From: a virus
Virus record (IMG/VR): IMGVR_UViG_3300005827_000187
Coordinates: 1 to 43,621 of that record
DNA: 43,621 nt
Strand: one strand, 5' to 3'
Below, in pieces: positions 3,971 through 43,621 of the stretch. Each line of letters opens with the position of its first letter. Position 1 is the first letter of the stretch. Under the pieces are notes generated by a model. That model was given only the letters and a program-made list of their open reading frames with translations. It was not told the DNA's origin and searched no databases. Position numbers and translations under genes: made by a program.

Positions 3971-4122
3971 ACGTCACCGCAGCGAGGGCGTCCCGCTAAA
4001 CAAGGCGTATTGCGCGGCGCGGACAGCGCGAGAACGTGACAGTAGCGCCCGGCGACTGGTTCTCCATAAATTAGACTGAGGGCGCACGGCAGCGCACAGA
4101 TGAGCGACCTGGCCGGTGACGT
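3971..4122 (+). ncRNA. Candidate structured RNA upstream of the tRNA
   Basis: ACGTCACCG (3971-3979) pairs perfectly with CGGTGACGT (4114-4122), closing a domain of about 150 nt that starts at the predicted +1 and stops 11 bases before the tRNA. Inside are AGCGAGGG/CCCGCT, CGCG-gacag-CGCG, and GCGCCC (4045-4050)/GGGCGC (4080-4085). A competing GTGAC at about 4035 could also pair with the 5' strand. No open frame with a ribosome site is present. No known RNA class recognised. Confidence 0.5.
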
Positions 4123-4133
4123 ACAGAAATTAT

Positions 4134-4204
4134 TGCGCGGTAGAGTAATGGCAACTCGCAGGCCCCATAAGCCTGTTTTCCGGGTTCGACTCCCGGCTGC
4201 GCAA
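4134..4204 (+). tRNA. tRNA with CAT anticodon (Met, or Ile if lysidine-modified)
   Basis: Full cloverleaf by hand: acceptor TGCGCGG/CTGCGCA (one G-T pair), D arm GAGT/ACTC with loop AATGGCA, anticodon arm CAGGC/GCCTG with loop CCCATAA, variable TTTT, T arm CCGGG/CCCGG with loop TTCGACT, discriminator A. Anticodon CAT (4166-4168). The U1-A72 pair argues against an initiator tRNA. Odd: position 33 is C, where U is nearly universal in bacterial tRNAs. CCA is not encoded. Confidence 0.85.
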
Positions 4205-4314
4205 TTTGGCGGCGCGATATGGCCGGAACTAGCCAACCCGGAAGCACATTGTAAATACCAGTTTGACCGGTCGGTGTGCGTTAAAAATTTACCCTATGCG
4301 CCACACAAAAAAAA

Positions 4315-4367
4315 GACGGGCGGCGGCGACCCCTACGACAGTAAAAGTCTGCAACAGCCCGCCCGTC
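4315..4367 (-). terminator. Rho-independent terminator reading on the minus strand
   Basis: GACGGGCGG (4315-4323) and CCGCCCGTC (4359-4367) form a perfect 9-bp stem with a 35-base loop. On minus the stem is followed by eight T (AAAAAAAA on plus at 4307-4314). On plus it is followed only by a loose AATTATTTT. No minus-strand gene is visible to the right for several kb. Confidence 0.5.
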
Positions 4368-4396
4368 AGAAATTATTTTCGATAGGAGTTTATCGC

Positions 4397-4570
4397 ATGG
4401 ACAAATGGATTATTGACCTCGCTGCAAAGTTAATCACCGCCGCCCTTCGCCGGGCAATCCTTGACCCGGACAAACGCGCCGCCGTTTTGAGCGCGGCGCG
4501 CCAGATGGTGTCAGATGTATCGATGCTAATCGCGCAAGTGGAAACCTTACGCGCCTCTGATTTGAAATAA
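4397..4570 (+). CDS. Hypothetical small protein, 57 aa
   Basis: Mostly amphipathic helix (WIIDLAAKLITAALRRAIL). Start chosen for the ribosome site TAGGAG eight bases before the ATG. A longer frame from 4100 would run through the tRNA and is rejected. No family recognised. Placed before a membrane/coiled-coil pair. Confidence 0.6.
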   Translation: MDKWIIDLAAKLITAALRRAILDPDKRAAVLSAARQMVSDVSMLIAQVETLRASDLK

Positions 4571-11312: not shown

Positions 11313-11868
11313 CATGTCCGCCCTATCTGACCAACTCAAAAGCGGCGCGATTGGCCTGTCAGAATGGCAGTCGGGGATGAAGGATTTAATCCTTGACGAA
11401 CTGACAAACGCCATGATACTGGCTAAGAACGGGCGGGATAATATCACGCAGGCCGATTGGGGCTTTGTTGGAAGTCAGGCGAAAAAGCAGTATCAGTATC
11501 TGGACAAATTCGCCGCCGAAATAGCCGCCAATCCTACGGCGTGGCTGACTGGCAACCGGTTACAGGCGCGGGTGAGTTTGTATCAGCAACTTGGATACGC
11601 CGCGTTGGAGGAAGATGTCCAACGCGAAAAGGTCAAGGCCGGATTTACGGAAGAAATAAACGTGCTTGACCCCGGAGCGGAGCATTGCACCACGCACGGC
11701 GACAGACCGGGATGCAAAGAGATTACCGACAAGGGTTGGCAGCCTATCGGAACACTTCCGAAGGTTGGCGAAAGAGCGTGCTACACAAATGATCGCTGTT
11801 CCATCAGGTATCGCAAGCCTGACCCAGAAAACCCTGCCAAGTGGATTTATGGAGAGGATGACAAATGA
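11305..11868 (+). CDS. Minor head protein, MuF/SPP1 gp7-like
   Basis: 187 residues. The C-terminal signature with Cys and GTLPKVGERACYTNDRCSIRYR matches the end of phage head-morphogenesis (MuF-type) proteins, which sit inside the head near the portal. The N-terminal helical part (SEWQSGMKDLILDELTNAM) fits as well. Position after the portal agrees. The start could also be the in-frame ATG three codons later. Confidence 0.7.
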   Translation: MSSMSALSDQLKSGAIGLSEWQSGMKDLILDELTNAMILAKNGRDNITQADWGFVGSQAKKQYQYLDKFAAEIAANPTAWLTGNRLQARVSLYQQLGYAALEEDVQREKVKAGFTEEINVLDPGAEHCTTHGDRPGCKEITDKGWQPIGTLPKVGERACYTNDRCSIRYRKPDPENPAKWIYGEDDK

Positions 11869-12050
11869 AACTTAAAAAAGAAGTAGATGACATGCTTGAC
11901 GATTTGATTATGACAACCTACGTATCCGGCTTGCTAAAGAACGATACGCGAGAATATAGCGCCATGCAAAAGGCGCAGGATAGTTTTCAGAAATTGAAAT
12001 CTTTCCTCGAAAACTGCAAGGGCGATATTTACGAAAAGGCCGACAAATGA
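11865..12050 (+). CDS. Hypothetical helical protein, 61 aa
   Basis: All-helical, charged (KKEVDDMLDDLIMTTY; SFQKLKSFLENCKGD). Coupled to the minor head gene by ATGA. Unknown function. Confidence 0.55.
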   Translation: MKLKKEVDDMLDDLIMTTYVSGLLKNDTREYSAMQKAQDSFQKLKSFLENCKGDIYEKADK

Positions 12051-12253
12051 CAACAGAAACTTGGAACGGCCCAAAAGAAGAAGGCTGGTACTGGTTGGAC
12101 GATAAAACTATGCCGCAAGAACAGCCATTTATCGTCCGTGTCCAGCCACATAAGAAATATGGCTTTGTTTGTTTGGCGGCTGGATATAGTGGATTCTTGT
12201 ATCCCGCCGATGACGCAAAATGGGAGCGAATACCGGACAAGGATGACAAATGA
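12047..12253 (+). CDS. Hypothetical protein, 68 aa
   Basis: Trp/Tyr-rich beta protein (EEGWYWLDDKTMP; PFIVRVQPHKKYGF; ADDAKWERIPD). The pattern resembles small DUF551-like phage proteins, from memory only. Overlaps both neighbours by four bases. Confidence 0.6.
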   Translation: MTTETWNGPKEEGWYWLDDKTMPQEQPFIVRVQPHKKYGFVCLAAGYSGFLYPADDAKWERIPDKDDK

Positions 12254-12390
12254 CCGACCGCGAATTTTGGACGATGATTAGAACCGCGCTTCTCATGGTC
12301 GTTTCGGCCATTGAAAAGAAATACATGATTGGAAAGCACGACCCGCTCAGGCGCGTTGAAATCGGCGCGTCGGATAGTATGACGGGTTGA
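12250..12390 (+). CDS. Hypothetical small protein, 46 aa
   Basis: Begins at an ATG overlapping the upstream stop (ATGA). DREFWTMIRTALLMVVSAI is a hydrophobic or amphipathic helix, then a basic IEKKYMIGKHDPL. The motif FW..I..AL.....AIE..Y is common in tiny phage proteins. Its stop lies at the promoter described next. Confidence 0.55.
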   Translation: MTDREFWTMIRTALLMVVSAIEKKYMIGKHDPLRRVEIGASDSMTG

Positions 12391-12395
12391 CATTT

Positions 12396-12405
12396 GTGCT
12401 ATAAT
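12396..12405 (+). promoter_or_regulatory. Extended -10 promoter before scaffold
   Basis: TGC-TATAAT (TATAAT at 12400-12405), perfect -10 with the TGn extension. A perfect TTGACA is at 12387-12392, but only seven bases away, so it cannot serve as a normal -35. It drives the small RNA and probably the capsid operon by read-through. Confidence 0.6.
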
Positions 12406-12411
12406 GTATTT

Positions 12412-12503
12412 ACGTGCGGGCGAAATGTAAAACATCCGCCCCCATAAGCAAGAGTTTATCCAAAACGCTTGGTTTGCCGAAAGGCTGACCAGGCGTTTTT
12501 TTT
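12412..12503 (+). ncRNA. Small structured RNA or leader with terminator
   Basis: 5' hairpin GGGCG-aa-ATGT/ACAT-c-CGCCC (12418-12431 region), a single-stranded AGCAAGAGTTTATCC, then a strong terminator: AAAACGCTTGGT (12462-12473) with ACCAGGCGTTTT (12488-12499), an inner GCC-GAAA-GGC, and eight T. About 92 nt from promoter to T tract, with no open frame. It may be a free small RNA or an attenuator controlling the scaffold and capsid genes. Confidence 0.6.
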
Positions 12504-12540
12504 GTTATCCGGGCGAGATGCCCGAAAGGAAAAATCCGAG

Positions 12541-13086
12541 ATGGATACCCAGCAACAAGTTACCGAGACGGTAGAAACCCCCGGCGCGAAGCCGGAAATC
12601 AAGGCCGCGGAAACCCCCGAGCAATTGCTTGCCCGCATTATCGACCTAGAGCGGCACGCAAAAAACAAAGAGGATGAGGCGGAACGCAATCGAAAAAAAG
12701 TGGAGAAACTCGAAGCGGCAGAGAAGACCCGCGCCGATGAGCAGTTGACAAAAGAACAGCGGCTGGAAAAGGAACTTTTAGAAGCCCGCGCCCAAGTCGA
12801 GACGACCCGCGCCGAAGCCGCCGCCAAACTGCTGAAATCCGCTGTGCTTTTGAAAGCGTCTGAAATGGGATTTGAACATCCCGCCGACGCGTACGCATTG
12901 GCTGGGCTTGACCCCGCCACCGAATACACGGACGCGCAAATTGAAGCCGCGCTCAAAACGCTGACAGGGCGTCTCCCTGTCAAGGCGCAAGGGGCTGGGG
13001 TTGGCTCTGCCAAGTTCCCCGGCAAGTCCGGCGTCAAAATCCAAAGCACACAAAAGGCAACGAGGAAGTTTACCCCGTTCCTGTAA
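12541..13086 (+). CDS. Capsid scaffolding protein
   Basis: 181 residues, long coiled coil (LLARIIDLERHAKNKEDEAE through LLEARAQVETTRAEAAAKL), then a short domain (ASEMGFEHPADAYALAGLD) and a basic C-terminus ending KFTPFL. This is the layout of phage scaffolds, whose basic tail binds the major capsid protein during prohead assembly. Start chosen at the ATG after GAAAGGA; the in-frame upstream extension runs through the terminator of the small RNA. Confidence 0.82.
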   Translation: MDTQQQVTETVETPGAKPEIKAAETPEQLLARIIDLERHAKNKEDEAERNRKKVEKLEAAEKTRADEQLTKEQRLEKELLEARAQVETTRAEAAAKLLKSAVLLKASEMGFEHPADAYALAGLDPATEYTDAQIEAALKTLTGRLPVKAQGAGVGSAKFPGKSGVKIQSTQKATRKFTPFL

Positions 13087-41819: not shown

Positions 41820-41825
41820 TATAAT
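41820..41825 (+). promoter_or_regulatory. Promoter (-10) of the pseudoknotted RNA
   Basis: TATAAT, perfect, with TG directly before it and no good -35. The start would be near 41832. Confidence 0.55.
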
Positions 41826-41831
41826 AGAGAC

Positions 41832-41985
41832 GTGGAAGTGATGAGCCACGCGCAGAAAATCTTAGCAAAGCAAAATGTACCCGTTTGTCGTTTTATCAGT
41901 GGTTTTTGGTAAAGGCGGATTCATCACCCGCAGAGTCTTTGCTAAGAGCCAGAAACCACTGATAAGCCTGCAAGCGGGTTTTTTG
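41832..41985 (+). ncRNA. Candidate structured RNA with nested and interleaved helices
   Basis: No reading frame. H1 CGTGG (41831-41835)/CCACG (41846-41850). Its loop GTGATGA (41838-41844) pairs with TCATCAC (41921-41927). S1 CTTAGCAAAG (41861-41870)/CTTTGCTAAG (41937-41946). S4 ACCCGTTTG (41879-41887)/CAAGCGGGT (41971-41979). S2, 18 pairs with two G-U, 41892-41909/41949-41966. S2 nests inside S4, whereas S1 and the H1 loop pair with the apical loop of S2, making two pseudoknots. A T tract follows S4. Not a class I recognise. Confidence 0.75.
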
Positions 41986-42006
41986 TTTTAACGAGGAGCG
42001 CAAGCC

Positions 42007-42228
42007 ATGAAATATACATATCGCAGTATGATGGATAAGAAAATTCATTACACCACCCGCATCTTTTCTGGATGGCAACGCGGCGGAATACTTAACGCCT
42101 GGGGAGCCATTTTCGCGAGCAAGGGCGGTGGGCACTGGATACCTGAATACCTGCTCACGAAAGAGACGCTGGCCGCCATTACGCCAAAACCTTACGACCC
42201 GGCAGCGCGGGAGGAGGCGGAATCATGA
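42007..42228 (+). CDS. Hypothetical protein, 73 aa
   Basis: YRSMMDKKIHYTTRIFSGWQ, then GGHWIPEYLLTKETLAAITP. No family recognised. Ribosome site ACGAGGAGCG. First gene after the structured RNA. Confidence 0.6.
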   Translation: MKYTYRSMMDKKIHYTTRIFSGWQRGGILNAWGAIFASKGGGHWIPEYLLTKETLAAITPKPYDPAAREEAES

Positions 42229-42422
42229 GCGCAATCCCCGGACGCATTGACTATGATACAGCCTGCGCAAGATGCGGGCAGCCCGTCGCAAAGAATAAGA
42301 GCGGCTACACCTGTTTCCAGTGTGGACATACGGTAACGGCGGTTATTCCGATGGAGCAAGCCAAGCACGTCGAAGAGAAGGCGGTACAAATGCCGCTGAT
42401 AAAACCAGGAAGGGCAGAATGA
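42225..42422 (+). CDS. Zinc-ribbon protein, 65 aa
   Basis: CARCGQPV (14-21) and CFQCGHTV (30-37), a perfect two-knuckle ribbon. Overlaps both neighbours by four bases. It precedes the replication initiator and may assist it. Confidence 0.7.
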   Translation: MSAIPGRIDYDTACARCGQPVAKNKSGYTCFQCGHTVTAVIPMEQAKHVEEKAVQMPLIKPGRAE

Positions 42423-43333
42423 GGACGCTATCCCCTGATATTTGGGACGATGAATGGTTTGGGCAACTTGACCCGATTGGAATGATAATCTGGGTTGGCC
42501 TGCTCACGCGGGTGGCAGATGACCAGGGCAGGCTTTTGGATAATCCGAACCTGATAAAGTCCCGCATCTTTCCTCTCGCCGAAAATCCCAGCGCCTACGA
42601 TGTAAGCAATACCCTGGCCTTTTTCATGGCGGATGGTAAACTGATTTCGTATCAGGCGGACGGGAAACACTACTTGCAATTTGCGAATTGGTGGAAGTAT
42701 CAGGCGTCGTCGCAGTGGATGGGCGCAAGCAAATATCCCGCTCCAGAAGGCTGGCAAGATTGCTACAACTATCACGGCAAGGGTAACGCGCTGGTTACGT
42801 CTCCGAACTGGAAAGATAGGGCGGGGGGATATTCCAAGATAGAAGACAAGATAGCACCCAAGATAGCCAGCGAGATTGTATACGATGTTAAAGATGATGT
42901 TAATGATAATGATAATAAAAAGAAGGGCGCTGCTGCTTTTCAATTCTCCCAGAACGCAAGCCACGCCGAAGCCGAGCGCGCCTTGCTTTCTGCGTCCGGG
43001 CTTCCTGCCCTGCCCGCCGGGGCTTTGTCTTTCCTGGATACGGTTTCTGGGTTGCTTACTCAGTATCCGCCAGACGCCGTAAAGGGTGCGCTATCAAAGG
43101 CCAAGATAAAATGGTGTCAGACAAAGCGCAAAGACGGCGGCGGTACTTACAGCGTTCTTAATTTCGCCTGGGTTGATTGGGCGATTGCGGACTTATCCGG
43201 GCAGGAAGTTGCCGCCCCGCAAAAGTCGGCTGTGATTTCCGAAAATCCCCCGCCCGCCCCCGATAAGAGCGTACCTATTCCGCCCGAACTCAAGGCAAAG
43301 ATGGCTAATCTATTTCAAGGCAAACCGCTATGA
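42419..43333 (+). CDS. Replication initiator protein, 304 aa
   Basis: N-terminus (LSPDIWDDEWFGQLDPIGMI, IWVGLLTRVADDQGRLLDNP) matches phage replication / winged-helix initiators of the DnaD-O-like kind. The middle is a short acidic and Lys-rich linker (DVNDNDNKKKGA), and the C-terminus (NFAWVDWAIADLSG) is a helical domain that would contact DnaB. dnaB follows with ATGA overlap. Start chosen at that overlap with the previous gene. The gene itself carries the iterons described next. Confidence 0.75.
   Translation: MRTLSPDIWDDEWFGQLDPIGMIIWVGLLTRVADDQGRLLDNPNLIKSRIFPLAENPSAYDVSNTLAFFMADGKLISYQADGKHYLQFANWWKYQASSQWMGASKYPAPEGWQDCYNYHGKGNALVTSPNWKDRAGGYSKIEDKIAPKIASEIVYDVKDDVNDNDNKKKGAAAFQFSQNASHAEAERALLSASGLPALPAGALSFLDTVSGLLTQYPPDAVKGALSKAKIKWCQTKRKDGGGTYSVLNFAWVDWAIADLSGQEVAAPQKSAVISENPPPAPDKSVPIPPELKAKMANLFQGKPL
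42835..42922 (+). other. Candidate replication origin (iterons and AT-rich element)
   Basis: CAAGATAG occurs at 42835, 42847 and 42859, exactly 12 bases apart, with a degenerate AAAGATAG at 42812. Straight after is an AT-rich tract (about 42873-42922) rich in GATGTTAA and AATGATAAT. Iterons plus an unwinding tract inside the initiator gene is the lambda O/ori design. Confidence 0.6.
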
Positions 43334-43621
43334 TGCCAGACGAACCGATTGCCTTTATTACGCCTCACAGCGCCGAAATCGAAGAAGCGCTTATTGGTAC
43401 ATTGCTTTATGCGCCGGAATGTTACCGGGAAGTTTCGCACCTTTCGGCCCCGTCATTTTATATCCATCGGAATCGCTTTGTCTGGCAGGCCATGACGCGC
43501 CTCGCAGAAAGACAGTCACCGGTTGACATACTGATACTCACTCAGGAACTAGCCGACATGGGCCGCCTGGAAGAAATCGGCGGGGCGGGGCGGTTAACTG
43601 AACTTATGAATAGCGGTTTGC
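43330..43621 (+). CDS. dnaB: DnaB helicase, N-terminal part (3' end cut by window)
   Basis: ITPHSAEIEEALIGTLLYAP, FYIHRNRFVWQAMTRLAERQ, PVDILILTQELADMGRLEEI and GGAGRLTELMNSG give the complete DnaB N-terminal domain. Ends at base 43621, one base into a codon. Continues at position 1 after about 29 missing bases. Start overlaps the initiator stop by ATGA; an ATG at 43333 is also in frame. Confidence 0.93.
   Translation, partial: MMPDEPIAFITPHSAEIEEALIGTLLYAPECYREVSHLSAPSFYIHRNRFVWQAMTRLAERQSPVDILILTQELADMGRLEEIGGAGRLTELMNSGL

Follow-up and report, generated by a model that had tools for sequence, protein, structure and literature searches.

The analysis confirms the knotted RNA at 41832-41985 of the window (the whole stretch of 43,621 nucleotides analysed here, the record of an uncultivated phage) and assigns it to an RNA family that had not been catalogued before. 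A structure-based scan, mainly of terminase relatives, found 11 further elements, giving 12 in 9 phage lineages. In all 12 the order is a sigma-70 -10 box, the 5' strand of a first helix (S1), a loop that is usually U-rich, the 5' strand of a second helix (S2), the 3' strands S1' and S2', a Shine-Dalgarno sequence and an ATG, and in most copies a T tract lies between S2' and the Shine-Dalgarno sequence. Because the element starts at a promoter and ends before an ATG, it is the 5' leader of the next gene and not a free-standing RNA gene. The original prediction had regarded it as a free-standing RNA with packaging or interference with host RNA among its possible functions; however, in every relative the element runs from a promoter to a point shortly ahead of the next gene's ATG, and these options are unsupported for an element that is a 5' leader throughout. 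Our results add an RNA family that is invisible to sequence search and to Rfam, in which mainly topology and promoter spacing are conserved, and they show one leader reused by phages before unrelated nuclease families and before their own replication genes.

The four helices of the window copy were located within 41820-41989, together with its TATAAT and T tract. These features and the genes that follow them are:

41820-41825, plus strand: -10 box, a perfect TATAAT
41831-41850, plus strand: 5'-terminal hairpin at the predicted transcription start, CGTGG/CCACG, 5 pairs (41831-41835 with 41846-41850)
41838-41844 with 41921-41927 (3' arm TCATCAC), plus strand: loop-loop helix, 7 pairs
41860-41870 (TCTTAGCAAAG) with 41937-41947 (CTTTGCTAAGA), plus strand: crossing helix S1, 11 Watson-Crick pairs
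41879-41887 with 41971-41979, plus strand: outer helix prolonging S2, 9 pairs (8 Watson-Crick, 1 G-U)
41892-41910 with 41948-41966, plus strand: S2, 19 pairs (16 Watson-Crick, 3 G-U)
41979-41989, plus strand: T tract TTTTTTGTTTT, directly 3' of the helix and intrinsic-terminator-like
41993-41998, plus strand: Shine-Dalgarno sequence GAGGAG of the ORF behind the leader
42007-42228, plus strand: 73-aa ORF directly behind the leader, without a Pfam match
42419-43333, plus strand: replication initiation protein (phrog_1408), a member of the operon that the leader heads

The perfect TATAAT in front and the terminator-like T tract behind had both been predicted and are present, as are the helices, although two of these, counted before as 18 and 10 pairs, have 19 and 11 (the counts of 9 and 7 pairs stand). 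S1' lies inside the apical loop of S2 and directly adjoins S2' with zero linker, so that full pairing of both S1 and S2 at once is a possibility and no more. The minimum free energy (MFE) of the element is -58.6 kcal/mol (z = -5.9; 0/200 shuffles), and the S1 x S2 crossing scores 33.6 against a best of 28.0 among 3,000 dinucleotide shuffles, none of which comes close. The ATG at 42007, which with its Shine-Dalgarno sequence is at most 18 nt from the T tract, had not been taken into account; the location in front of replication genes had been noticed, and the leader indeed heads the RepO operon. The window copy is atypical in three respects. A recognisable -35 was not found in it (best match 2/6), its spacing to the ATG is longer, and it has an extra 5' hairpin, present in this copy only, whose loop contains GTGATGA, the 5' arm of the loop-loop helix. 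S1 starts 34 nt past the -10 box because this hairpin is inserted between, and it is the hairpin, not S1, that stands at the predicted start. The order S1, S2, S1', S2' between the -10 box and the Shine-Dalgarno sequence and ATG is that of the family; the assignment of this copy rests on the topology, the alignment of its S1 to that of L102 and the position at a replication operon.

Sequence comparison detected none of the relatives. BLASTN against phages, the phage's own genome and terminase relatives gave zero relatives of the window element, Rfam 15 gave no family at gathering score for it or for ten loci holding relatives (MIR6288 and MtlS are long-hairpin look-alikes far under threshold), exact-arm pattern scans with S1 or S2 returned chance palindromes only, and RepO and the 73-aa ORF, used as probes, had no relatives among viral contigs. 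The RNA had thus rightly been called unrecognised; BLAST and Rfam are blind to the relatives because the sequence drifts while the pairing stays. The structure scan was based on 80 viral loci related to the window phage by its terminase. A first scan looked for long stems with a loop complementary to sequence further upstream; it revealed this architecture, in unlike sequences, in L100, L110 and L102. Later scans, made after further sequence of those phage genomes had been fetched, were anchored on the -10 box. The inventory, with the genes behind the leaders (Pfam families unless stated), is:

Window: one copy, before a small unknown ORF; RepO in the replication context
G004: three copies, L090 943 (plus strand), before LAGLIDADG_1, and L199 9577 (plus strand) and L199 15239 (minus strand), before small unknown ORFs; DnaD/O-like replication context
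G005: L201 (minus strand), before HNH_3 and then RepO
G010: L100 (plus strand), before OrfB_IS605/TnpB
G012: two copies, L102 (minus strand), before an ORF that reads as a zinc-finger HNH protein and has no Pfam hit, and L101 (plus strand; contig matching G012), before HNH_3
G019: L110 (minus strand), before HNH_3
G024: L181 (plus strand), also in G025, before a glycosyltransferase gene
G044: L227 (plus strand), also in G034, before HNH and then DNA primase
G298: L285 (plus strand), on a phage contig inside an Anaerolineae MAG, before HNH_3

In the final rescan of 3.6 Mb, ten elements that obey the spacing rule scored at least 34 and all else at most 28.6; the rule leaves out L227 (spacing 8) and the window (34), both of which were caught by wider scans. 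A crossing pair with a score of at least 28 occurred at 9 of 818 perfect TATAAT sites, a count that includes one case later rejected on inspection (L069), against 1 of 4,908 shuffles. The rejected case, high-scoring in a scan of methyltransferase relatives, consists of two plain hairpins, and these relatives (80 loci) held no element. An S2-like sequence match between L175 and the window was attributed to chance. The search covered terminase relatives and some side samples, and twelve elements are few.

The core common to the family is one S1 x S2 crossing, to which a small helix is often added, in a leader of about 95-150 nt with an S1 of 8-17 pairs. Homologues with compensatory changes, proposed as a check of the original prediction, were found for S1; the second pseudoknot (kissing loop), however, is not shared. 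The window S1 is alignable with those of relatives, for example TTACTTAGGCAAAGCA of L102 (AATCTTAG-CAAAG in the window against TTACTTAGGCAA in L102), and is counted in an alignment of eight alignable members in which 100 of 104 base-pair cells are standard, although this alignment, being hand-made and helix-guided from few sequences, is biased toward the helix. Two to four pair types occur in 12 of its 14 columns with repeated double compensatory changes, and a G-C to A-T change inside an alignable motif (TTGTCTAGG / TTACTTAGG) is a true double substitution. S2 is present in every member, but is not alignable in sequence. These comparisons indicate that the pairings of the leader are under selection and that its sequence largely is not. 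Recognition by one specific protein is disfavoured because the sequence is free to vary.

S1 begins 4-8 nt past the -10 box in 11 of the 12 copies, at the predicted transcription start. When placement was left free from 0 to 60 nt past the box, all seven relatives found start S1 at 4-6 nt, and the perfect TATAAT is also present in 7 of 11 relatives. One possible explanation is that the leader acts only as a stabiliser, its first bases being held in a strong helix that would block 5'-end-dependent nucleases and pyrophosphohydrolase. This would fit the observation that S1, or the 5' hairpin in the case of the window, stands where transcription is predicted to begin, and a structure with little sequence conservation suits a mechanical role. 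Stabilisation by 5' stem-loops is well documented (Emory 1992 and Bricker 1999, as cited in PMC3997798); in ompA and papA, cited there too, a helix likewise forms the first element of the mRNA, whereas the leader is a phage-borne pseudoknot of two long helices with a T tract past the second. However, a plain hairpin would suffice for stabilisation, and the constant crossing S2 and the T tract past it would be unexplained; thus, we consider stabilisation as the only function rather unlikely.

At the other end of the leader, a T-rich 8-mer past S2 was detected by an automatic rule in 7 of 12 copies, against 7.6% of 463 background starts. In L201 and L101, outside these seven, T runs directly past the Watson-Crick part of S2 were seen by eye, and L110, the minus-strand copy of L199 and L285 are without a convincing T tract. 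The ATG is 12-29 nt past S2 in the relatives (read directly in L285) and 41 nt in the window. It could be supposed that the leader is a free-standing small RNA acting in trans and terminated at the T tract, with host RNA systems or sister leaders among its possible targets. In favour of this, the window copy combines the best T tract with the widest spacing to the ATG, and in L090 and the minus-strand copy of L199, which belong to the same phage, the S1 strands have TTGTCTGG in common and could cross-pair. Nevertheless, all 11 relatives stand directly before an ATG, and neither a conserved exposed seed nor an Rfam match was found for the leaders, which makes this reading most improbable.

The proximity of S2 to the start codon and the frequent U-rich spacers might also mean that the leader controls translation only, S2 and the spacer near the Shine-Dalgarno sequence setting ribosome loading as a standby site or a block. 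Leaders that sequester the ribosome-binding site (RBS) precede T4-group homing endonucleases, namely I-TevI, Aeh1 mobE and T4 segB (PMC3014915). Like these, the leader is structured, has its own promoter and stands before phage homing endonucleases, presumably limiting or timing their expression. However, it is a pseudoknot and not a hairpin, its promoter lies ahead of the structure, and it also precedes replication operons and a glycosyltransferase. The Shine-Dalgarno sequence is 3' of S2, outside both core helices, in all 12 leaders, so that neither it nor the AUG is inside a core helix as in the T4 type, and pairing with sequence upstream of the leader, the alternative pairing expected if read-through RNA misfolds as in T4, was not enriched (mean z -0.1 and -0.2). 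Translation control as the sole function is accordingly improbable. In L201 (minus strand), GAGACGCCAA beside the HNH_3 start codon repeats the 5' strand of S1; in this copy only, S1' might pair with either the 5' end or the Shine-Dalgarno region as a possible switch.

The best explanation, which we propose tentatively as quite possible though short of probable, is that the leader is a cis-acting, promoter-coupled element that would gate expression of the next gene or operon as a pseudoknotted attenuator. Known attenuators, like the expression platforms of riboswitches, have an antiterminator-terminator pair upstream of the regulated ORF. The leader similarly has an early helix competing with a later GC-rich hairpin and a T tract upstream of an ORF; unlike in attenuators, the early helix crosses the terminator strand, as in an H-type pseudoknot, instead of overlapping with it, and a recognisable aptamer or sensor is absent. 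In pseudoknot-free MFE folds of the growing chain, S1 is present before S2 can form in 12 of 12 copies, and S2 replaces S1 once its 3' strand is made in 9 of 12; in the window a stable hairpin is immediately followed by the T tract. The growing transcript contains all of S1 by the time the 3' strand of S2 is made, S2 with the T tract resembles an intrinsic terminator, and S1 may serve as a built-in antiterminator that either slows S2 or is displaced by it, with low or timed expression of costly genes as the outcome. The finished knot, its 5' end paired, may also shield the mRNA from 5'-end-dependent decay. Attenuation fits the early S1 and the T-rich stretch, and partly S1 at the start site, which stabilisation also fits; the leader may do both. 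S1 and S2 do not strictly exclude each other, however, and if they coexist as a knot there would be no switch. Furthermore, termination cannot be the whole story because three leaders are without a convincing T tract, no signal or ligand is indicated in the sequences examined, and the lack of the leader from some HNH_3 genes of the same phages counts against attenuation. If the leader is an attenuator, it would be a compact, testable case of transcription control by pseudoknot topology and possibly a general answer to how phages restrain resident homing endonucleases and TnpB.

By Pfam, seven leaders are followed by mobile nucleases, which belong to unrelated families, and an eighth is so by eye; in four lineages (the window, G004, G005 and G044) the leader is ahead of replication genes. 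The possibility that it is a guide RNA of TnpB was set aside, as the same leader precedes nucleases using no guide. We consider it unlikely, although worth stating, that the leader is a portable promoter-plus-pseudoknot module acquired separately by the unrelated nucleases (LAGLIDADG, HNH_3, HNH, TnpB) and replication operons, as a protein-free, ligand-free kinetic antiterminator that would set read-through. In such a module the topology itself would do the regulating, since closed S1 would hinder the winding of the 3' strand of S2 while this is still tethered to RNA polymerase. A different role would be factor-free antitermination as in HK022 put, where the nascent leader binds RNA polymerase and later terminators are ignored; the leader would then mark phage transcripts for elongation over a long range. 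Both are phage RNAs at the start of early transcripts in which structure counts over sequence, putL likewise lying just downstream of an early promoter (PMC9378689); the leader is phage-specific, is right at its promoter and heads the replication region in the four lineages. Nevertheless, put is about 70 nt with two stem-loops, critical unpaired residues and no pseudoknot (PMC9378689), whereas the leader is longer and has crossing helices, a comparable unpaired consensus was not found among the leaders, and long-range antitermination would be of little use to nuclease cassettes of a single gene. We therefore strongly doubt a put-like function. The leader also resembles that of T4 gene 32 in being a phage 5' leader pseudoknot upstream of a replication gene, but in gene 32 the knot is bound by a protein for autoregulation and the RBS is A+U-rich (PMC3014915), and autoregulation by one protein is unlikely for our leaders because the genes behind them are unrelated to each other. 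Functionally, the leader would come closest to attenuator leaders or to 5' stabilisers, in the role of the T4 homing-endonuclease leaders, although it lacks the features that define these T4 leaders and put. The literature searched, which included few subscription journals, gave no description of the family.

The leader was absent from HNH_3 genes of other viral contigs (L235-L260), which belong to unrelated phages. Because these genes and some HNH_3 genes of the leader-bearing phages are without it, the leader characterises this group of phages rather than homing endonucleases at large. Among thirty Anaerolineae HNH_3 loci the leader occurred once, in L285 on a phage contig, and among thirty chromosomal TnpB loci of Anaerolineae it was absent; one exact-motif pattern run on 396 genomes of class Anaerolineae gave L285 again and nothing else. 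The best terminase match in bacterial genomes (65%) is L266, in an Anaerolineales MAG. From this match and the L285 phage contig, the hosts of the leader-bearing phages are probably Anaerolineae bacteria.

Several minor observations were made in these genomes. The leader-nuclease genes of L110, L102 and L285 (contig L310) are antisense among neighbouring late phage genes; long late transcripts would therefore be antisense to the nuclease mRNA. Phage G010 has two IS200/IS605-like units, L100 309-380 (minus strand) and 11740-13059, with almost identical left ends (CACCGGGCTTTAGCCCGGTG hairpin); one is followed by a TnpA-like ORF and the other by tnpB, which the pseudoknot leader separates from the left end. 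The start of the L285 leader (989-1030) is 87% alike over 38 nt to L100 345-309, where the TnpA-like gene of G010 has its promoter and start, a resemblance that may hint at where the leader came from. A DnaB-like helicase is split over both ends of the window (43330-43620 and 1-987), and the record is therefore probably a circularly permuted complete genome. A tRNA-Met gene of the window (4133-4205) lies on the same strand within the reading frame 4100-4570. Unrelated to the leader, L141 8935-9170 is an array of alternating inverted copies of GTTGGGTATGAGCTCAAC, and L175 11550-11670 contains three tandem hairpins, AAACCACTGATGT...ACATCAGTGGTTT.
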